Assembly (NCBI RefSeq): GCF_007097265.1
Contig: NZ_VJZP01000001.1
Span: 1-64,000, forward strand
Length of the DNA: 64,000 nucleotides
DNA from: Flavobacterium gawalongense
Lineage (GTDB): Bacteria > Bacteroidota > Bacteroidia > Flavobacteriales > Flavobacteriaceae
Direction of reading: 5' to 3'
A program made the translations under genes and the position numbers. Shown in pieces: positions 7,811-22,966 of the stretch. The stretch's first letter is position 1; each line of letters begins with the position of its first letter. The notes under the pieces were generated by a model. That model worked only from the letters and a program-made list of their open reading frames with translations. It ran no database searches and was not told where the DNA came from.

Positions 7811-9550
7811 ATGAACAAAACTGTAAATATAAACCTAGGCGGAATGTTCTTTCATATAGATGAAGATGCATACCAAAAATTAACACGATACTTTGATGCC
7901 ATAAAACGTTCTTTAAATAATTCATCAGGGCATGATGAGATTATAAAAGATATTGAAATGCGTGTTTCAGAATTATTGAACGAGAAACAAATAAGCGACA
8001 AACACGTTGTAGGATTAAAAGATGTTGATGAGGTAATTGCTGTAATGGGACAACCTGAAGATTACATCATTGAAGATGAATTGAAAGGTTCTCAAACGTA
8101 TAGTGACAACTCCAATAGAAGATCTAAAAAACTGTATCGCGATAAAGAAAAAGGAATGATTGGCGGTGTTGCCGCAGGATTAGGACACTATTTTGGAATC
8201 GATGCTGTTTGGATCAGAATTGTTTTAATATTATTAGTTTTTGCTGGATTTGGAACCGGTATTCTTGCTTACATTATCCTTTGGGTGGTAACACCGGAAG
8301 CCATTACGACATCAGAAAAACTAGAAATGACAGGGGAACCGGTTAACATTTCTAATATCGAAAAAAAAGTTAGAGAAGAGTTTGAAAGCGTTTCAGGAAA
8401 AATAAAAAATGTTGATTACGACAAATATGGCAATCAAATAAAAACAGGTGCCAATAAAATAGGAAGCTCATTTGGTGATTTTATCATTACTGTTTTCAAG
8501 GTTTTTGCAAAATTTTTAGGTGTGATTTTGATTATGTCAAGTTTAGCAATACTAATCGTTTTCTTAATTGGTGTTTTATCACTGGGCTCAACAGGTTTCA
8601 CTAATTTCCCATTTCATGACTTTATCGAATCTGGAAATTTCACGGATTATCCGATTTGGTTTTTTGGAGTTTTATTTTACATCGCTGTAAGTATTCCGGC
8701 ATTTTTCCTAATGCTTTTGGGCTTCAAATTATTAGCCCCAAATATGAAATCTATCGGAAATATCGCTAAATATACTTTATTGGCAATTTGGATAATTTCA
8801 ATTGCATTGTTAATATCAATAGGTGTAAAACAAATGTCAGCGTTTTCGGCTAACGGTAGAGTTGTAAATAAGCAAATCATACCATTGAAAGAAAATGACA
8901 CCTTGCGTATAAAATTTGTACATAATGATTATTTTTCAAAAAATATAAATGACAATCACGATTTCATGGTTACCGAGGATTCAACCGGTGCAAAAGTGAT
9001 TTATTCTAATCAAGTACGTATCAATATCCGCAAAACGGATGAAAAATCACCTTATATCCAAATTGAAAAAGAAGCGAAGGGAAAATCATTGTTTGAAGCT
9101 AAGAAAACAGCTGAAAAAATTCAATATGGCTATACGATTATTGGTAATCAATTGATTTTAGACAACTATCTATTAACTGATTTCAAAAATAAATTCCGTG
9201 ATCAAGAAGTAGAAATAACGTTGTATTTACCAGAAGGAACTTTACTAAAACCAGATTCTTCTGTTGAAAATTATGATCGTTCTGATAATGATTTTTTCAA
9301 CTTGCATTACAGTTCAGACAATTACATTTACAAAGTGGAAAACTCTCAAATAAAATGTTTAAATTGTCCTGCTGATGAAAATGAATATGATGACGTTGAT
9401 AATGACATGGATGACAACGACAGCACTCAAACCTCTGTTACTATTAATAAAAACGGAGTTTCTGTAAAAAATGACACGATCATTAATTCAAAAAACAACA
9501 TTCAAGAATTAAAAATTAATAAAGACGGCATTATCATTAAAACCAAATAG
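7811..9550 (+). CDS. PspC domain membrane protein with C-terminal beta-rich region
   Basis: 579 residues. The N-terminal ~95 residues are cytoplasmic (MNKTVNINLGGMFFHIDEDA, probable regulatory region). The PspC domain covers about 100-170, with KLYRDKEKGMIGGVAAGLG and the following membrane helix. Three or four further membrane helices (about 225-340) follow. The C-terminal ~220 residues are extracytoplasmic, beta-rich and resemble GIN/DUF4097-like modules, ending in an acidic stretch (DDVDNDMDDNDS) and repeated KING/KNG strands. PspC proteins sense or relieve inner-membrane stress in other bacteria; here there is no pspA nearby and the partner is PadR. The layout suggests an envelope sensor, which is inference. 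Confidence 0.9.
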   Translation: MNKTVNINLGGMFFHIDEDAYQKLTRYFDAIKRSLNNSSGHDEIIKDIEMRVSELLNEKQISDKHVVGLKDVDEVIAVMGQPEDYIIEDELKGSQTYSDNSNRRSKKLYRDKEKGMIGGVAAGLGHYFGIDAVWIRIVLILLVFAGFGTGILAYIILWVVTPEAITTSEKLEMTGEPVNISNIEKKVREEFESVSGKIKNVDYDKYGNQIKTGANKIGSSFGDFIITVFKVFAKFLGVILIMSSLAILIVFLIGVLSLGSTGFTNFPFHDFIESGNFTDYPIWFFGVLFYIAVSIPAFFLMLLGFKLLAPNMKSIGNIAKYTLLAIWIISIALLISIGVKQMSAFSANGRVVNKQIIPLKENDTLRIKFVHNDYFSKNINDNHDFMVTEDSTGAKVIYSNQVRINIRKTDEKSPYIQIEKEAKGKSLFEAKKTAEKIQYGYTIIGNQLILDNYLLTDFKNKFRDQEVEITLYLPEGTLLKPDSSVENYDRSDNDFFNLHYSSDNYIYKVENSQIKCLNCPADENEYDDVDNDMDDNDSTQTSVTINKNGVSVKNDTIINSKNNIQELKINKDGIIIKTK

Positions 9551-9552
9551 CC

Positions 9553-10293
9553 ATGATAAAAATCATCACATTAATCACAAAATTCATTAGTGTCACTTTG
9601 GTTGCATTATTGTTTGCATCATGTAATCATATGGTCAACATGAAATCAATAGAAGGAAGTGGCCATGTCACCACTGAAAAGCGAATTGTACAAGGCGATT
9701 TTAAAAGCGTTAAAGTCAGCAATGCTATAGAGCTTGTTATTGAACAATCAGACAAAACAGAAATCATTGTTGAAGCTGATGATAATTTGCAAAAAGAAAT
9801 CACCACCAAAGTGGAAAACGGCGTTCTTATTATTGCCTGTGATTATAATTCTTTCAACAATATAAAATCCAAAAAAGTAACGGTAAAGATGCCTGTTATT
9901 AATCGATTAGAGGCTTCCGGTGCAGCTACAATCAAAAGCAGCAATACATTAAAAGGGGAAAATATTAAACTGGAAGCCTCTAGCGCAGCTTCAATAGATC
10001 TAAATATTGAATCGGATGCTATTTTTTGTGAATCCAGTAGCGGAAGTACTATTGTCATCAATGGAAAAGCTCTTAAACTAGATGCAGCAGCGTCAAGTGG
10101 AAGTACTATAGATGCCAAAAATTTATTGGCAAATGAAATCAAAGCTAACGCTTCAAGTGGCGCTTCTGTTAATGTACATCCAATTGTAAGCTTGGATGCA
10201 GAAGCATCTAGTGGAGGAAGCGTGAGTTATAATACAGTTCCAAAATCAATTCGAAAAGAAGAGAATTCAGGAGGAAGCATTCATCAGGAATAA
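9553..10293 (+). CDS. GIN domain (DUF2807) lipoprotein
   Basis: 246 residues with a lipoprotein signal (lipobox FASC, Cys at about residue 24). The mature part is a head-GIN-type right-handed beta-helix (DUF2807): GDFKSVKVSNAIELVIEQSD, then repeated S-S-G-S/A turns such as EASSAAS, ESSSGST, ASSGAS, EASSGGS. These are stacked solenoid turns. It is the third gene of the PadR-PspC operon, 2 bp after PspC. The lipid anchor would place it on the inner leaflet of the outer membrane or at the cell surface. Its biochemical role is unknown. Confidence 0.9.
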   Translation: MIKIITLITKFISVTLVALLFASCNHMVNMKSIEGSGHVTTEKRIVQGDFKSVKVSNAIELVIEQSDKTEIIVEADDNLQKEITTKVENGVLIIACDYNSFNNIKSKKVTVKMPVINRLEASGAATIKSSNTLKGENIKLEASSAASIDLNIESDAIFCESSSGSTIVINGKALKLDAAASSGSTIDAKNLLANEIKANASSGASVNVHPIVSLDAEASSGGSVSYNTVPKSIRKEENSGGSIHQE

Positions 10294-15974: not shown

Positions 15975-16041
15975 GTTTCAAACTTAAGGTTTAAAGTTCT
16001 AAATTGAACAACCTTAAACTTTGAACTTTAAACAAAAAATT
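15975..16041. repeat. Heptad intergenic repeat before first lepB
   Basis: Built of GTTTAAA/AACTTTA-like 7-bp units arranged around a dyad (ATTGAACAACC region), ending in TTTAAACAAAAAATT directly before the ATG. The same design recurs before the second lepB, wbqC, gap and the Nif3 gene. Confidence 0.65.
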
Positions 16042-17616
16042 ATGACTCCATATCAATGGTTTGTATTTTTCCTAATTATTCAGGTAGTTCACTTTTTAGG
16101 AACTTGGAAACTATACGAAAGCGCGGGAAGAAAACGTTGGGAAGCCGCCATTCCTGTTTATAATGCTATTGTATTAATGAAAATAATAGGCCGCCCTACT
16201 TGGTGGACGATTTTACTTTTCATCCCTATTATTAACCTAATTATGTTTCCGGTGATTTGGGTTGAAACACTGAGAAGTTTCGGAAAAAGATCTTCTTTAG
16301 ATACTTTTTTAGGAATTATTACTTTTGGATTCTACATCTATTATATCAACTATACTCAAAAAGTAGAGTACATAGCTGACAGAAGTTTACAACCTGAAAA
16401 TAAAACAGCAGATACTGTTAGTTCTTTACTTTTTGCTGTTATCGTGGCTACATTAGTTCATACCTATTTTATCCAACCGTACACCATTCCTACATCATCA
16501 TTGGAGAAATCGTTGTTAATTGGTGATTTTTTATTTGTGAGTAAAATGAATTATGGAGCTAGAGTTCCTATGACCACTGTAGCATTGCCTATGGTTCATG
16601 ATTCAATTCCTTTAACCAAAAGGAAATCTTATTTGACTTGGCCACAATTACCTTATTTAAGATTACCAGGAATTCAAAATATTGATCGCACTGATATTGT
16701 AGTGTTCAACTGGCCTGTTGATACCGTTTATAAGTTTTTTGACACATCTAAAAGACGCGCTTACAAACCCGTAGATAAAAAATCGAATTATGTAAAAAGA
16801 TGCGTTGGGATTCCTGGCGATAGCCTGTCTATAAAAGATGGTATTATTTATATTAATGGCAAAATATTACAATTGCCGGAAAGAGCAAAACCACAATTCT
16901 CCTATAAAATAACCTTAGACGGAAAAACACCCATCGATTTTGAATATCTGTTTAAAGATATGGATGTGACTGATCCGGCTGGATTTATGGACCAGACTAA
17001 AAGGGATACGCTGTTTATGGGTGCTTTGACTGAAGCTGGAGCCAAAAGATTAGAAAATGTACCTGGCATTACTGCTGTGACCAGAGAGATTTCAAAAAAA
17101 TCTGATAACGGCATATTCCCTCATATTAACAAATGGAACCGCGATAATTACGGTCCGATATACATTCCGGAAAAAGGAAAAACAGTCGCTTTAACAACAG
17201 AATCATTACCATTTTACAAAGCTATAATTACTGATTATGAGACGAATAAAAATGGAGAGAAGAATGACCTTAAGGTAACAGGAAACGAAATCAGACTAAA
17301 TGGTCAGGTTGTTGACAAATATACTTTTCAGCAAAATTATTATTGGATGATGGGAGACAATCGCCATAACTCCGAAGACAGCCGTTATTGGGGTTATGTT
17401 CCTGAAGATCATATCGTAGGAAAACCAATTTTTATATGGTTAAGCATAGACCCTCATGGAAAAGGGTTAAATAAAATACGTTGGGACAGAATTTTTACAA
17501 CTGTTAGCGGAGAAGGTCAGCCTCAATCGTATTTTAAATTATTTTTGCTTGGTTTAGTAGCCTTCTTTGTTGGAGAATATTTTTGGAAAAAAAGAAAGAC
17601 AAAAAAGGATATTTAG
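16042..17616 (+). CDS. lepB: Signal peptidase I (first of tandem pair)
   Basis: The start is at ATG 16042, aligned with its paralogue; an upstream TTG at 16021 lies inside the repeat. 524 residues. The N-terminal ~110 residues are a multi-helix membrane domain (DUF5684-like; PTWWTILLFIPIINLIMFPV). Then comes an S26 catalytic domain: Ser153 in IPTSSLEKSLLIGD, the Lys box YVKRCVGIPGDSL and the MGDNRHNSEDSRYWGYVP box. A large insertion separates the Lys and GDNR boxes, common in Bacteroidetes. The usual SGSMxPT motif is TSSLEKS here. It cleaves signal peptides of exported proteins at the inner membrane. A C-terminal membrane helix ends in KKRKTKKDI. Confidence 0.93.
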   Translation: MTPYQWFVFFLIIQVVHFLGTWKLYESAGRKRWEAAIPVYNAIVLMKIIGRPTWWTILLFIPIINLIMFPVIWVETLRSFGKRSSLDTFLGIITFGFYIYYINYTQKVEYIADRSLQPENKTADTVSSLLFAVIVATLVHTYFIQPYTIPTSSLEKSLLIGDFLFVSKMNYGARVPMTTVALPMVHDSIPLTKRKSYLTWPQLPYLRLPGIQNIDRTDIVVFNWPVDTVYKFFDTSKRRAYKPVDKKSNYVKRCVGIPGDSLSIKDGIIYINGKILQLPERAKPQFSYKITLDGKTPIDFEYLFKDMDVTDPAGFMDQTKRDTLFMGALTEAGAKRLENVPGITAVTREISKKSDNGIFPHINKWNRDNYGPIYIPEKGKTVALTTESLPFYKAIITDYETNKNGEKNDLKVTGNEIRLNGQVVDKYTFQQNYYWMMGDNRHNSEDSRYWGYVPEDHIVGKPIFIWLSIDPHGKGLNKIRWDRIFTTVSGEGQPQSYFKLFLLGLVAFFVGEYFWKKRKTKKDI

Positions 17617-17661: not shown

Positions 17662-19272
17662 ATGACACTATATCAATGGTTTTTATTTTTTCTAATTATT
17701 CAAGTAGTTCACTTTTTAGGAACTTGGAAACTATACGAAAGCGCAGGAAGAAAACGTTGGGAAGCAGCTATTCCTGTTTATAATGCTATAATTTTAATGA
17801 AAATAATAGGCCGTCCTACTTGGTGGACGATTTTGCTTTTTATTCCTATTATTAACCTTATTATGTTTCCCGTAATTTGGGTCGAAACTTTAAGAAGTTT
17901 TGGAAAAAAATCTACTTTAGATACTTTTTTAGGGATTGTTACTTTTGGATTCTACATCTATTATATCAACTATACTCAAAAGTTAGATTACAAAGCAGAG
18001 AGAAACTTAATCCCCGAGAATAAAACTTCCGATACCATTAGTTCATTACTATTTGCTGTCATTGTTGCTACTTTGGTTCACACCTATTTTATACAGCCAT
18101 TTACGATTCCGTCTTCTTCATTAGAAAAAACATTATACGTTGGCGATTATTTATTTGTGAGTAAATTAAATTTTGGAGCAAGAACTCCTATGACTGCAAT
18201 TGCGTTGCCTATGGTACATGATTCAATCCCATTTTTAGGCGTTAAGTCATACCTATTCAATGATGATATTACAAAAAAGGAAACTTCGATTTTGAACAAG
18301 TTTCAATTACCCTATTTTAGATTCCCTTCGATTGAAACGATTAAACGCAATGAAATTGTAGTGTTTAATCAACCCGCAGATACTTTATTGGATATGGATA
18401 ATTTTAAACCAACAAGAAATTATTACAAACCTATTGACAAAAAAACAAATTTAGTAAAACGCTGTGTTGGAATACCTGGAGATTCTTTGGAGATTCGTGA
18501 AGGAAACATTTATATCAATGGAAAACCAACCAAATTACCAGAAAGTGCAAAACTTCAATATAACTTTTTTGTAAATACTCAAGGTACAAATATGGATCAA
18601 AATTCCCTAGTAAACAGGTATGGCGCTAGAGATGGTTTGAAGGATGGGAATGGAGATTTTGCATTGACCAATAATGGAGAATATGTATTGACATTAACCG
18701 ATAACGAAGCAGCCAGGATAGCGAACAATCCAGTAGTTAAAGGTGTCAAAAAGTATTTACTTCCAAAGGGAGAAGATGGAGATGTATTTCCTCACATTCA
18801 TTCGTTAGGATGGAACATAGACAATTTTGGACCTATTTATATTCCAAAAAAAGGAGAGACAATCAAATTAGACAAAAACACACTTCCATTTTATAAACGC
18901 ATTATACAGGAATACGAAAAAAATACATTACAGATTAACGGTGACAAAATTATAATAAACGGAAAACCAGTTAGCAGTTATACTTTTAAACAAGATTATT
19001 ATTGGATGATGGGAGATAATCGCCAAAACTCTTTAGACGCAAGATTTTGGGGATATGTTCCTTTTGACCATATAGTTGGTAAACCTGTATTCATTTGGTT
19101 TAGTTGGGATAAGGATGGTAAAGGGTTTCAAAAAATAAGGTGGAATCGTGTTTTCTCTTTCGTAAATGGAAATGGGGAACCTAAATCTTATTTAATCCAT
19201 TTCTTATTTGCCCTAACAGCCTTTTTTGTTGGTGAGCATTTCTGGAAAAAGAGAAAAGAGAAAAAGGGGTAA
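17662..19272 (+). CDS. lepB: Signal peptidase I (second of tandem pair)
   Basis: 536 residues and a direct paralogue of the preceding gene. The N-terminal ~110 residues differ at only a handful of positions and the DNA there is almost identical, while the catalytic part is clearly more diverged. The motifs are kept: IPSSSLEKTLYVGD (Ser nucleophile), LVKRCVGIPGDSL (Lys) and MGDNRQNSLDARFWGYVP. The insertion between the Lys and GDNR boxes differs from its partner, which suggests different substrates. The C-terminus has a membrane helix and KKRKEKKG tail. Confidence 0.93.
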   Translation: MTLYQWFLFFLIIQVVHFLGTWKLYESAGRKRWEAAIPVYNAIILMKIIGRPTWWTILLFIPIINLIMFPVIWVETLRSFGKKSTLDTFLGIVTFGFYIYYINYTQKLDYKAERNLIPENKTSDTISSLLFAVIVATLVHTYFIQPFTIPSSSLEKTLYVGDYLFVSKLNFGARTPMTAIALPMVHDSIPFLGVKSYLFNDDITKKETSILNKFQLPYFRFPSIETIKRNEIVVFNQPADTLLDMDNFKPTRNYYKPIDKKTNLVKRCVGIPGDSLEIREGNIYINGKPTKLPESAKLQYNFFVNTQGTNMDQNSLVNRYGARDGLKDGNGDFALTNNGEYVLTLTDNEAARIANNPVVKGVKKYLLPKGEDGDVFPHIHSLGWNIDNFGPIYIPKKGETIKLDKNTLPFYKRIIQEYEKNTLQINGDKIIINGKPVSSYTFKQDYYWMMGDNRQNSLDARFWGYVPFDHIVGKPVFIWFSWDKDGKGFQKIRWNRVFSFVNGNGEPKSYLIHFLFALTAFFVGEHFWKKRKEKKG

Positions 19273-19340: not shown

Positions 19341-19961
19341 ATGAACACACTAATACATCCCACCTATTTCCCATCGATTAGCCATTTTGCAGCGATCGCT
19401 CAGGCTGAAAGTATTATGTTCGAAATAGAGGATAATTTTCAAAAACAAACCAATCGCAATCGCACTTATATTTATAGTCCAAATGGAATTCAGTTATTGA
19501 ATATCCCTGTAAAACATTCGAAAGAAAGTCATCAAAAGACAAAAGATATCAAAATAGAAACTGATTTTGACTGGCAGAAACAACATTTTAAATCACTGGA
19601 AGCGGCATACAGAAGCTCTCCTTTTTTTGAATTTTTCGAAGATGACTTACGTCCAATATTCGAAAAAAAACATACCTTTCTTTTGGATTTGAATTTTGAA
19701 ACTTTAGCTATTATGACTAAATGTTTGAGAATGAAATTGGATTTTACTACTACAACTGAATATTTTCATGAAGTGGATACAAATGCCATAAAAGACTTTA
19801 GATTTTTGGTAGATGGAAAAAAGGATCCTTCTTCCTTTGAAACTTATACCCAGGTTTTTGATGATAAACATGGATTTATCAACAATCTAAGTATTCTGGA
19901 TTTATTATTTAATGAAGGAAAATATGCAATGGACTATTTGAAGAAACAGAAAATAGAATGA
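19341..19961 (+). CDS. WbqC family protein
   Basis: 206 residues resembling the WbqC-like family: HPTYFPSISHFAAIAQAES at the N-terminus, TNRNRTYIYSPNGIQLLNIP, then HSKESHQKTKDIKI, and a FDWQKQHFKSLEAAYRSSPFFEFF segment. WbqC-like proteins are linked to sugar or O-antigen nucleotide pathways, but the reaction is not established. It is the last gene of the parA-lepB train. Its last 39 codons (19845-19961) are duplicated in decayed form at 20878-21001, on the far side of the toxin-antitoxin pair. Confidence 0.85.
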   Translation: MNTLIHPTYFPSISHFAAIAQAESIMFEIEDNFQKQTNRNRTYIYSPNGIQLLNIPVKHSKESHQKTKDIKIETDFDWQKQHFKSLEAAYRSSPFFEFFEDDLRPIFEKKHTFLLDLNFETLAIMTKCLRMKLDFTTTTEYFHEVDTNAIKDFRFLVDGKKDPSSFETYTQVFDDKHGFINNLSILDLLFNEGKYAMDYLKKQKIE

Positions 19962-19991
19962 GACTGAAAACAATTTTATATCTTTGTTTAA

Positions 19992-20297
19992 ATGAAAACC
20001 AAATACACCATATCTCAATTATCTCCTCATATTTTTTGGGATGTTAATACAATGTCTTTGGATTTTGAAAAATCAAAAGAACAAATCATCTATAAGGTAC
20101 TCGAATTTGGCGTTATGAACGATTGGAACATCATCAAAAAAGTTTACGGTTTAGAAGTAATAAAAAATATTTCTCTTCAATTCAGAAGCTTGGATGTTGT
20201 TACACTTTCTTTTTTAGCCAACCTATTTCAAATAGAAAAATCCAATTTCAGATGTTACAAACTCAAACAATCGAACCAAAACTCCTGGAATTATTAA
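19992..20297 (+). CDS. Probable antitoxin (DUF6922-like) of an AbiEii-type pair
   Basis: 101 residues with the opening ISQLSPHIFWDVNTMSLDFE, a helical middle (VLEFGVMNDWNIIKKVYG) and a C-terminal segment resembling the small partner proteins found before AbiEii nucleotidyltransferases. Its 3' end overlaps the toxin gene by 46 bases in another frame, typical of coupled antitoxin-toxin expression. No DNA-binding motif is obvious. The antitoxin assignment rests mainly on position and the recalled family resemblance. Confidence 0.75.
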   Translation: MKTKYTISQLSPHIFWDVNTMSLDFEKSKEQIIYKVLEFGVMNDWNIIKKVYGLEVIKNISLQFRSLDVVTLSFLANLFQIEKSNFRCYKLKQSNQNSWNY

Positions 20298-20863
20298 ACA
20301 AGATAATGACTTCGGAAATATTTGAAGGATTTAATCTCGTTGGAGGAACTTCGTTAGCATTACAAATTGGACATCGCTTTTCGGTAGATATCGATATGTT
20401 TGGGAATTCCGAAATAAACGAAGTCGAATTCACTGAAGAACTATCTAATTTCGGAAAAGTTATTACTCTAAAAAAAAGCAAAAGTATCATTATTTTCTCC
20501 GTAGATGGCATTAAAGTTGATTTTGTAAATTATAAATATCCTTTGATCGAAAGCCCAAATAGTATTAAAAACATAAGAATGGTTTCAGACAAGGATGTTG
20601 CGGCTATGAAACTCAATGCTATTGCAGGAAGGGGAAGCCGGAAGGACTTCATTGATTTGTATTTTCTTCTAAAAAAATACTCCCTAAAAGAACTGTTTTC
20701 ATTTTACAATAAAAAATATACAGATGGTTCTGAATTTATGGTTTTAAAAAGTTTAACTTATTTCGACGATGCTGAAAATGAAGAAATGCCAATTATGTTT
20801 GAAGAGGTTGATTGGAATGAAATAAAAAACACAATAGTAAAAGCAGAACATAACTTAGTTTAA
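20252..20863 (+). CDS. AbiEii/AbiGii-type nucleotidyltransferase toxin
   Basis: The start is taken at ATG 20252 (MLQTQTIEPKLLELL); a longer in-frame start at 20123 would read far into the antitoxin gene. 203 residues. Motifs of the type IV toxin nucleotidyltransferases: LVGGTSLALQIGHRFSVDID with the DxD metal-binding pair, and the downstream VAAMKLNAIAGRGSRKDFID box with the conserved Lys-Asp-x-x-Asp. Family members transfer nucleotides to cellular targets and cause growth arrest or phage abortive infection. The pair lies between two copies of the wbqC 3' end, a sign of horizontal acquisition. Confidence 0.88.
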   Translation: MLQTQTIEPKLLELLNKIMTSEIFEGFNLVGGTSLALQIGHRFSVDIDMFGNSEINEVEFTEELSNFGKVITLKKSKSIIIFSVDGIKVDFVNYKYPLIESPNSIKNIRMVSDKDVAAMKLNAIAGRGSRKDFIDLYFLLKKYSLKELFSFYNKKYTDGSEFMVLKSLTYFDDAENEEMPIMFEEVDWNEIKNTIVKAEHNLV

Positions 20864-20877
20864 ATTTCTAGAAAATT

Positions 20878-21001
20878 TACACCCAATTTTTTGATGACAA
20901 ATATGGTTTCATCAAATAATTTAAGCATTCTGGATTTATTATTTAATGAAGGGAAATATGCAATGGATTATTTGAAGAAACAAAAACTTATAATAAAATA
21001 G
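20878..21001 (+). pseudogene. Decayed duplicate of wbqC 3' end
   Basis: Aligned with 19845-19961, the last ~37 codons of wbqC match at about 88% of bases, and 10 of 13 differences are at third codon positions. One extra T after ATCAAA breaks the frame, and no start codon belongs to it. Because most differences are silent, this copy was once coding in another lineage or for a long time before it was cut off. Confidence 0.85.
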
Positions 21002-21012
21002 ATTCCAAAGTT

Positions 21013-22059
21013 TTATTCGAAAGACAATCTGGCCATTATAGGAAAATGATCGGAATTTATAAATTCCGGGAAACTTTCAAATTTCTTGACTTTCATTTTT
21101 TCGTCAGCAAATATATAATCGATACGGGCAGGATAGTATCTAAATTTATAAGTGGCGCCAAAACCTTTTCCAGCTTCTTCAAAACTGTCTTTCAGCTTTC
21201 CTTTAATACTGCGGTAAACATAAGAAAAAGCACTATTATTCATGTCTCCACAAATTATAATAGGATATTTACAATCCTTTTTATGCTCCATAAAAATCTC
21301 TGCTTGCTCTTGTTGTTGTTTAAAAGCAATACTAATTCTTTTAAACATCATTTGAGATTTATCCTGATTAATTGCTTCAATATTCTCATCAATTTCATTA
21401 ACATCAGGAGATATTTTTAAGGATTGTAAATGCATATTATAAACCCTGATAACATCTTTTCCTTTTTTAATATCTGCAAAAACAACATTATTAGTGGAGT
21501 TAGGAAAAATAACATTTCCTTGGTCAATAATGGGGAATTTAGAAAAAATAGCCTGCCCACTTTTAATATTGTTTCCATCTGTAAAAATATACCGATGCGG
21601 ATATACTTTCAGATCAATGTTGGCTGAAGAAGAATATTCCTGAATGCACAATATATCGGGATTTTTATCATTTATAAAGGTTAGAATCTCAGAAGGGACA
21701 TCGTCCCTATCAATCCATTTGAACACATTGAATAGGTGAACATTGTAGCTCATTATAGTAAAATCATTCTCTGCTTTGGGCAATTCGACTGAAGAAAATT
21801 TATAGAATTTATTTATAAAAGTAATTCCTATCAAAAGTACCAGACCGGAAACAATCATTCGTTTTTTGAATTGAATTGCCCAATACGCAAAAAACAACCC
21901 ATTTATAATAAAAAAAAGAGGCATAAAAAGCGTCAACACCGACAAAAGAGGAAAGGATTTTGGCGCTAAAAAAGGCAAAACGTAGGCAATGAAAGTCATT
22001 ACAGCGAGTGCTATATTTAATACAAACATTACTTTATTGAACCATGAAAGGTTTTTCAT
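21013..22059 (-). CDS. Endonuclease/exonuclease/phosphatase family protein
   Basis: The start is chosen at ATG 22059 (MKNLSWFNKVMFVLN); an upstream GTG at 22095 adds 12 residues without domain content. 348 residues. Two or three N-terminal membrane helices (about 1-90) are followed by an EEP domain: FTIMSYNVHLF, NPDILCIQEYS (metal-binding Glu), IICGDMNNSAFS and the final SDHFPIMARL. The catalytic part would face the periplasm or cytoplasm depending on topology. The substrate (DNA, phospholipid or other phosphodiester) cannot be told. It lies 43 bp downstream of a rhomboid gene, in one minus-strand operon with mutL. Confidence 0.88.
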   Translation of the reverse strand: MKNLSWFNKVMFVLNIALAVMTFIAYVLPFLAPKSFPLLSVLTLFMPLFFIINGLFFAYWAIQFKKRMIVSGLVLLIGITFINKFYKFSSVELPKAENDFTIMSYNVHLFNVFKWIDRDDVPSEILTFINDKNPDILCIQEYSSSANIDLKVYPHRYIFTDGNNIKSGQAIFSKFPIIDQGNVIFPNSTNNVVFADIKKGKDVIRVYNMHLQSLKISPDVNEIDENIEAINQDKSQMMFKRISIAFKQQQEQAEIFMEHKKDCKYPIIICGDMNNSAFSYVYRSIKGKLKDSFEEAGKGFGATYKFRYYPARIDYIFADEKMKVKKFESFPEFINSDHFPIMARLSFE

Positions 22060-22102
22060 TTTTTCATTTTTTTCTGCAGACTGAAAACGGAACACTGCTA
22101 AC

Positions 22103-22966
22103 TTACTTACCCGCTTTGAACAAAAATTCTTTTTCTTCTTTTGTCAAACTATCATAACCCGACTGACTAATTTTATCTAAAATTTCATCAATCTGTTGCT
22201 GTGCTTTGTCCTTTGTAATTATTCTTGAACTACTTTTCTCAACTGGTTTACTATAATTTTTATGAACCCTTTTGAATGGCGTTGATGCACTTTTTTTGAA
22301 CAAATTTGTAAAAAAATCAAAAACACGTGATACTATTTTACTCAAATCAATTCCATTCTTGAGCAATTTAATAAAAATAAAACCAAAAAACGCACCGGAT
22401 AGATGAGAAATATGTCCGCCAGTATTTCCTAATCTAAATTGCATTAAATCAATTAAAATAATCACAAAAGTGATATGCCACAGTTTTACATTCCCAATTA
22501 ACAACAATCGTAAATTCATCAATGGATGATAGGTTGTTGTGGCTACTAAAACAGCCATAATTGCTGCAGAAGCACCAACAATGGAAGAACTTAAATTCAA
22601 AAAATAATAACCGGCGACAAAAGCTATTCCGGCAAATATAGCGCTCAATACATACAACCCTAAATATTGCTTCGGTGTAAAAAAGGTCAAAAACAAAGTG
22701 CTTGAAAAGTTTAAAACCACCATATTAAATAACAAATGCCAAAATCCATCGTGAAAAAAGGCATAGGTTAGAAAAGTCCAAGGTTTCACAATAAAATTAG
22801 AAGGTTCCGAAGAAAGGGCAATCCAGGTTGGAAAATCAAATGCGCCAACCTTAAATTGGTAGAAAAACAATAATGAAACCAAAAAGCAAACCACGTTCCA
22901 GAAAATTAGCTTAATTGCTATTCCTCCCATCTTGTATTGTAATTTCAGGTCGTCAATAATATTCAT
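22103..22966 (-). CDS. Rhomboid family intramembrane serine protease
   Basis: 287 residues with six predicted membrane helices. Motifs: FFHDGFWHLLFNMVVL (conserved His/Asn of helix 2), SIVGASAAIMAVL (GxSx nucleophile Ser) and GGHISHLSGAFFGF (catalytic His). The serine motif reads GASAA instead of GxSG. The C-terminal ~75 residues are cytoplasmic, basic, and include KDKAQQQIDEILDKISQSG, a feature seen in Bacteroidetes rhomboids. It lies in tandem with a second rhomboid upstream. Confidence 0.93.
   Translation of the reverse strand: MNIIDDLKLQYKMGGIAIKLIFWNVVCFLVSLLFFYQFKVGAFDFPTWIALSSEPSNFIVKPWTFLTYAFFHDGFWHLLFNMVVLNFSSTLFLTFFTPKQYLGLYVLSAIFAGIAFVAGYYFLNLSSSIVGASAAIMAVLVATTTYHPLMNLRLLLIGNVKLWHITFVIILIDLMQFRLGNTGGHISHLSGAFFGFIFIKLLKNGIDLSKIVSRVFDFFTNLFKKSASTPFKRVHKNYSKPVEKSSSRIITKDKAQQQIDEILDKISQSGYDSLTKEEKEFLFKAGK

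Follow-up and report, generated by a model that had tools for sequence, protein, structure and literature searches.

A DUF6922-AbiEii gene pair between two copies of the wbqC 3′ end in Flavobacterium gawalongense, and doubled ends of tex and polA in the genus

The 3′ end of wbqC is present twice in Flavobacterium gawalongense, on either side of a two-gene DUF6922-AbiEii cassette. It was found in a stretch of 64,000 nucleotides (contig NZ_VJZP01000001.1, positions 1 to 64,000), referred to here as the window. The same site is empty in relatives, gene ends are also doubled at tex and polA, cassettes are stacked into arrays at tex, and the two copies of an end differ mainly at third codon positions. 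The reading preferred here, with moderate confidence, is that a donor wbqC end and the pair entered together by recombination anchored in the gene end, and that the same process has acted at tex and polA. Genomes and loci compared are designated by G and L numbers, respectively, with G000 denoting the window.

Structure of the wbqC locus

Intact wbqC (19341-19961, + strand; Pfam WbqC PF08889, 122.7 bits) has the tail KIE* and its 3′ end is linked to the pair. The stretch TATCTTTG (19975-19985, + strand, first bases approximate), just 5′ of the antitoxin gene, contains TAnnTTTG, which we take to be a Bacteroidetes-type -7 box. The presumed antitoxin gene (19992-20297, + strand, 101 aa) matched DUF6922 (PF21956, 61.1 bits against a Pfam cut-off of 27) and had no NCBIfam match; none of the five proteins searched against NCBIfam was named. 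The presumed toxin (20252-20863, + strand, 203 aa) is an AbiEii-family nucleotidyltransferase, matched by PF08843 (58.4 bits, Pfam cut-off 22.5) and by the PADLOC AbiEii models, and weakly by phmmer to 3h37, a tRNA nucleotidyltransferase-related protein. Its ATG, at 20252, overlaps the antitoxin end; several toxin queries were started from the second codon (20255). An AbiEii-family toxin is common to this pair and to AbiE toxin-antitoxin systems; the partner here, however, matched only DUF6922 in Pfam and nothing in PADLOC, and is not AbiEi. The pair is presumed to be an active toxin-antitoxin system, and addiction or defence may help to retain it.

The second wbqC end (copy 2; 20873-21001, + strand) is broken in frame and has the tail KLIIK*. 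It repeats the functional end (copy 1; 19840-19961, + strand) in two registers, 19840-19882/20873-20915 at 81% and 19881-19952/20915-20986 at 92%, which are one repeat split by a one-base insertion. Comparison of the last 300 nt of wbqC with the downstream DNA (BLASTN) gave 114 columns at 86.8% identity, with one gap and 14 mismatches, distributed 3/1/10 over first, second and third codon positions; 10 of the 14 were synonymous. A wbqC 3′ end doubled around a toxin-antitoxin pair had been reported in a preliminary description, and the repeat stands. Two details were corrected: the interval between the copies is ~911 bp (19962-20872) and not ~916 bp, and the additional base of copy 2, given as a T, lies within an A/T run and is placed as an A by alignment with relatives. 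Only the DUF6922 and AbiEii genes lie between the copies, and no recombinase was encoded there (open reading frames and Pfam). The end of an EEP-family gene (21013-22056, - strand; Pfam Exo_endo_phos), the convergent neighbour of wbqC in relatives, lies 11 nt past copy 2. The start codon of this gene is uncertain, the open reading frame list placing it at 22095.

Copy 2 is most likely the old, native end, because the tail of the relatives (ELIIK*, resembled by KLIIK*) and their gap to the EEP gene are kept in it. The tail of copy 1 is shorter, like those of the pair-linked wbqC genes of G378 and G177, and we infer that copy 1 is a donor allele that arrived together with the pair. Sequence identity alone does not tell the native copy: over the whole alignment the copies share 84.4% identity, against 85.0% (copy 1) and 84.1% (copy 2) with the nearest of 23 relatives. 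The comparison of both ends proposed in the preliminary description gave no host match by identity, and the native copy was assigned from the tail and the EEP gap. Copy 2 has a base of its own at one position where 23/23 relatives agree, besides the frame-breaking insertion; at one position, within its stop codon, copy 1 departs from all 23. A donor from the G378 or G177 lineage is not supported, their wbqC ends (74% and 79% identical to copy 1) being no nearer than others. Tandem duplication of an ancestral wbqC-pair unit was ruled out by the empty-site tail on copy 2.

Of the 49 window genes tested, two had their 3′ end repeated in the next 5 kb. One is wbqC and the other is the first of two tandem lepB-type genes, where the match was a full-length paralogue. 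A random sample of 309 genes (800 kb, 20 genomes) gave two raw 3′-end matches. One was a paralogue in tandem and the other a 24-nt match that ended before the gene did; neither was counted. Controls on this sample (5′ end, middle, reverse direction) matched in one to three genes each, with three raw matches for the 5′ end. As the controls match as often, doubled 3′ ends are not common genome-wide and are confined to certain sites.

The wbqC site in relatives

A total of 109 relative wbqC loci were collected, 29 from one search and 80 from another, with some genomes in both. With G378 and G177 included, 93 of 111 wbqC sequences were distinct. The genus name is used for the panel because the named loci are nearly all Flavobacterium. 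Neither DUF6922 nor AbiEii was found by tblastn in any of the 109 loci. The EEP gene was in view at 108 of them (L084 ends before it), with a median gap of 32 bp between the wbqC and EEP matches: 60 bp or less in 72 loci, 61-150 in 25 and 151-330 in 10. The gap in L055 is 887 bp, with a TPR protein inside.

No second wbqC end was found in the 108 relatives, in 28 of which only ~1.5 kb downstream was searched. Among 111 loci (the 108, G378, G177 and the window), the end is doubled in the window only; matches of 13-24 nt at three other wbqC loci were taken for chance. An empty site with a single wbqC end in relatives had been predicted and is what was seen: all 109 loci lack the pair, and at 108 the EEP gene is in view. 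It had also been proposed that insertion would be contradicted by relatives carrying the second end without the pair, or by a pair general at this place; neither is the case. Long direct repeats of the target surround the insert in the window and are single copy in relatives.

The DUF6922-AbiEii pair at other sites

A strong toxin match (E < 1e-50) was present in 13 of 398 genomes of the genus, window included. Seventeen pair loci were read, comprising these 13 and four broken relatives (G153, G191, G044, G272). Weaker or shorter AbiEii matches occurred in 100 further genomes and were read in part: the same four and, outside the close family, G138, G363, G221 (second copy), G371 and G056. Distant matches only were found in plasmids (10 of 72,556 records; best covered match 40% identity) and in phages (2 of 50,697 records; 36% and 46%).

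The pair lies 3′ of wbqC at three loci (window, G378, G177), 3′ of polA at three (G089, G251, G200) and 3′ of tex in G221, G273, G165, G282, G362, G169, G153, G044 and G272. At a tenth tex locus, G156, the contig does not reach the upstream gene, and a tex end lies 3′ of the toxin. In G191 the pair follows a 777-aa gene, a helicase by its appearance. The wbqC end had been suggested as a hotspot for small defence modules. It does hold the pair in three of the 17 close relatives read, but as a minor site, tex being the main one and polA another.

Where a gene adjoins the pair, the antitoxin starts 19-109 nt past the stop of that gene, on the same strand; other DNA lies between tex and the pair in G221, G153, G169 and G272. 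Of 19 antitoxin starts (three from other genera), 16 were preceded by TAnnTTTG at no more than 32 nt, against 0.93 expected by shuffling. On a tree of 15 pairs, the neighbour gene changes four times, against a mean of 6.55 when shuffled (17 of 5000 shuffles as low). The tex-linked pairs cluster; wbqC- and polA-linked pairs mix, with weak support. The window toxin is nearest that of G089 at the polA site (82%), the wbqC-linked toxins being at 77% and 76%. The pair has switched genes (wbqC, polA, tex), and homology in the gene ends does not account for the switch.

A doubled gene end stands beside the pair at five of 16 assessable loci (G000, G251, G156, G169, G272) and is absent from 11; the downstream DNA of G362 was too short for inclusion. 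G378 and G177 have the pair at wbqC without a doubled end. Against 0/309 sampled genes, Fisher's test gave p = 1.5e-7 (3e-6 against the raw 2/309), figures that serve as a guide only, as the two sets were found and judged differently.

In the genome of the window, no AbiEii partner was recognised beside the DUF6922 genes of L142 and L144, and no doubled gene end was found at these or at the AbiEii genes of L145 and L147. A 57-column repeat at 74% is present in L145.

Doubled ends and cargo at tex and polA

Of 299 genomes, 233 had a match to a codon pattern for the tex end, 18 of them more than one; a reversed control pattern matched once in each of two genomes. Doubled tex ends on the same strand, 0.7-4 kb apart, were present in 14 of the 233, and a third copy lies at 4.8 kb in G204. 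G037, G131, G245 and G293 are outside the 14, their second tex end being on another contig. G007 is counted among the 14 by the pattern only, its second end being degenerate. Single-end tex loci (n = 7; G037, G153, G129, G139, G052, G059, G182) formed a comparison set.

Toxin-antitoxin or defence cargo was present in nine of the 14 doubled-tex genomes, five by family match and four by DNA alignment. It comprised DUF433-DUF5615 (G056; G106 by alignment), Septu (G169, G175), PDC-S01 (G169; by alignment G272 and a broken copy in G007), an ABC-3C/DUF2326 operon (G066) and a type IIG R-M enzyme (G204; G278 by alignment). The cargo of G065 (a sigma factor), G080, G099, G105 and G185 was without a defence match or unscanned. 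Different cassettes are found between the same conserved genes across genomes at tex. In L175 and L177, a common three-gene non-defence cargo on the opposite strand lies 3′ of tex, between doubled tex ends. The two are 95% alike over 2.7 kb and probably represent one event or one exchanged region.

Units are stacked at tex in some genomes. The order in G169 is tex, Septu, tex end, PDC-S01, tex end, AbiEii pair, and in G272 it is tex, PDC-S01, tex end, pair remnant. In G007, a PDC-S01 unit lies directly 3′ of tex and is 89.5% identical to the G169 unit over 1315 columns, tex ends included. Array units are common to these three genomes, and the Septu unit of G169 sits between tex and units that stand alone elsewhere. 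The order of entry suggested by the arrays is one in which new units enter at tex's own end, and Septu nearest tex in G169 is as expected from this.

At polA, doubled ends were confirmed in three of 286 matched genomes: G251 (81 columns), G131 (113) and G091 (198). Nine genomes had two polA-end matches; of these, G011, G146, G155 and G169 were left out because the matches were paralogues or unlinked, and G046 and G200 because they were split over contigs. The ends of the latter two are perhaps also doubled. Repeat lengths were 35-280 columns at tex, 81-198 at polA and 114 at wbqC, with no fixed length and core.

In L158 and L235 (G200), polA and the pair are followed by a transposase-looking open reading frame at the contig end, and a short polA end lies on a separate contig beside a LacI-like gene (names by eye). 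This doubled polA end may have been split by an insertion sequence. Elsewhere in G169 (L157), the 3′ end of a GH3-family gene is doubled (8015-8100 and 9596-9681, 86 nt, 86%) around a PagL-like gene, a non-defence cargo on the other strand.

Codon positions of the differences between copies

Two origins of the second copy were compared. In the first, donor and recipient alleles are brought together. In the second, the cassette was inserted in a gene end by a process that copied 35-280 bp of target, the copies being at first identical and later diverged. Both would give the same anatomy, and a cargo of toxin-antitoxin, R-M and defence type suits target copying.

Seventeen doubled ends could be aligned (13 tex, three polA, one wbqC; G156, G200 and the degenerate G007 end were left out). 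Third positions accounted for 141 of 203 differences (69%). Between functional tex ends of different genomes, the share was 78% (109 pairs). For one functional copy and a neutral relic, a simple model of our own, which allows copy 1 the neutral rate at third positions, gives an upper bound of 47%. The 17 pairs exceeded this bound (p = 5e-11), with 15 of the 17 individually above it. wbqC alone, at 10/14, is a small count (p = 0.057 against the bound). Because the tex search pattern tolerates third-position changes, the 30 nt stretch searched was removed as a check; 85 of 120 differences in tex pairs were then third-position (p = 8e-8), and 76 of 108 when G185 and G169, whose cargo is common with others, were also omitted.

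Under target copying, copy 2 would decay at all codon positions. The third-position excess argues otherwise and suggests that most copies diverged as coding alleles before coming together. On this evidence donor and recipient alleles were probably brought together, and of the two possibilities raised at the outset, a replacement end from another strain or an original end left behind, the replacement end is favoured. Target copying is left as a rather improbable account. It retains the G278 and G272 tex pairs, which lie below the bound and fit a decayed target duplication, two polA pairs that are 97% identical, and five of nine tex pairs tested in which the copies were nearer each other than any other end in the panel, the others not being so. 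Assignment of the native tex copy by the nearest relatives of the gene body gave mixed results, in a panel without close species. The donor type of an end is read from its codon positions, no donor itself having been found. Donor nearness varies among pairs, and at wbqC the similarity between the copies is about that of either copy to its nearest relative.

Discussion

Under the preferred reading, of donor and recipient ends joined by recombination, the donor DNA would have consisted of a wbqC 3′ end and the DUF6922-AbiEii pair from another strain or species. Recombination anchored by homology within the wbqC end would have given the recipient gene the donor end (copy 1), leaving the gene intact and the pair behind it, and the recipient's own end would have been left downstream as a relic (copy 2). 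The right-hand join could be illegitimate (homology-facilitated illegitimate recombination) or could come from a single crossover with a circle carrying the gene end and cassette, the products being identical. The same process would operate at tex and polA ends, repeated rounds giving arrays. Gene-end homology explains why the gene is intact and its end of donor type, why repeat lengths vary (35-280 columns) and how arrays arise; the route of DNA entry and the kind of right-hand join are the conjectural parts.

wbqC, and tex and polA where these are free of cargo, face a convergent neighbour (at tex and polA the gene names of the neighbours are presumptive, from their sequences), so additions there break nothing. 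Competence is reported for Riemerella and was not seen in F. johnsoniae, both Flavobacteriaceae (PMC7965970), and the missing competence of the latter is counted against the donor-DNA explanation. More speculatively, and on balance doubtfully, Flavobacterium may have an integrase-free cassette system. The travelling unit would be a gene 3′ end with a toxin-antitoxin or defence module, possibly as circles looped out between doubled ends, entering further genomes by crossover in the same housekeeping gene end, with the stacked units set off by gene ends. The arrays would then be an integron-like archive run by ordinary homologous recombination.

Phages can replace a host gene end, as phage 21 and e14 do at icd. 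Site-specific integration of this kind, with gene ends as attachment sites for a tyrosine or serine recombinase supplied in trans to end-carrying cassettes, would explain the fixed gene-end position and the donor-type end, and the 34-35 nt tex ends of G169 and G175 could be a core. It is nevertheless unlikely, as no recombinase lies between the copies in the window, the repeat length varies and three unrelated gene ends are involved. That the pair is ancestral at wbqC, the second end stemming from tandem duplication or the relatives having suffered losses, is very improbable: G378 and G177 also have it at wbqC with similar gene spacing (30, 28 and 24 nt), but it is absent from the 109 relative loci, copy 2 has the empty-site tail and not that of copy 1, and G378 and G177 lack a second end and have wbqC ends no nearer copy 1 than those of other relatives.

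The arrangement resembles several known systems. In the minimal mobile elements of Neisseria, two conserved genes enclose one or another of several small cassettes, as with the varied cassettes here; to our knowledge, that concept includes neither doubled gene ends nor arrays. Integrons hold serial small cassettes, often toxin-antitoxin, separated by a repeated site. The serial toxin-antitoxin cassettes and repeated site are shared, and the unit nearest the gene is the one missing from the shorter array. Unlike in integrons, it is the neighbouring housekeeping gene whose end serves as the repeated site, and no integrase was recognised in the reading of the loci.

Insertion with long target duplication has been proposed for R-M genes of Helicobacter pylori (Nobusato et al. 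2000, as described in PMC1643837 and PMC4978471). Selfish or defence genes between long direct target repeats, with an empty allele in relatives, are common to both cases; here, however, what is repeated is a conserved gene's 3′ end, the differences are mainly synonymous and the units stack into arrays. Homology-facilitated illegitimate recombination has been proposed for the T6SS immunity-gene arrays of Vibrio cholerae (PMC5361080). One homologous anchor, one illegitimate join and the downstream displacement of older 3′ parts are proposed there and may apply here. Parts of toxin genes are displaced there, whereas here it is housekeeping gene ends that are displaced, and the cargo forms no part of the anchor gene. 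Doubled gene ends around cassettes are a variant on known insertion patterns. In a literature survey thin on subscription papers, we recognised no account of Flavobacterium defence cassettes framed by doubled ends of housekeeping genes.

Where small toxin-antitoxin and defence genes move with no recombinase to carry them, as here, their points of entry are marked by doubled ends of ordinary genes, which preserve a record of donor and recipient alleles. They also give a search rule for cassettes, known or unknown: the 3′ end of a gene occurring again, on the same strand, no more than a few kb away. Since nine of the 14 doubled-tex genomes have toxin-antitoxin or defence cargo, unassigned cargo at doubled-end sites is worth a look.

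Other features of the wbqC region

A rhomboid-type gene lies next to the EEP gene (22103-22966; the same gene in L003-L111) and falls into two identity classes in relatives, ~60-75% and 75-90%, which do not track wbqC identity. These classes may be another sign of allele exchange at the wbqC locus. Upstream of wbqC, the tandem lepB-like signal-peptidase genes (16021-17616 and 17662-19272) are 93% alike over their first 120 nt and far less alike at their 3′ ends. The second lepB-like protein has 93% identity to those of G056 and G288 and ~50-64% to those of the other relatives compared, a pattern that suggests allele exchange or gene conversion.
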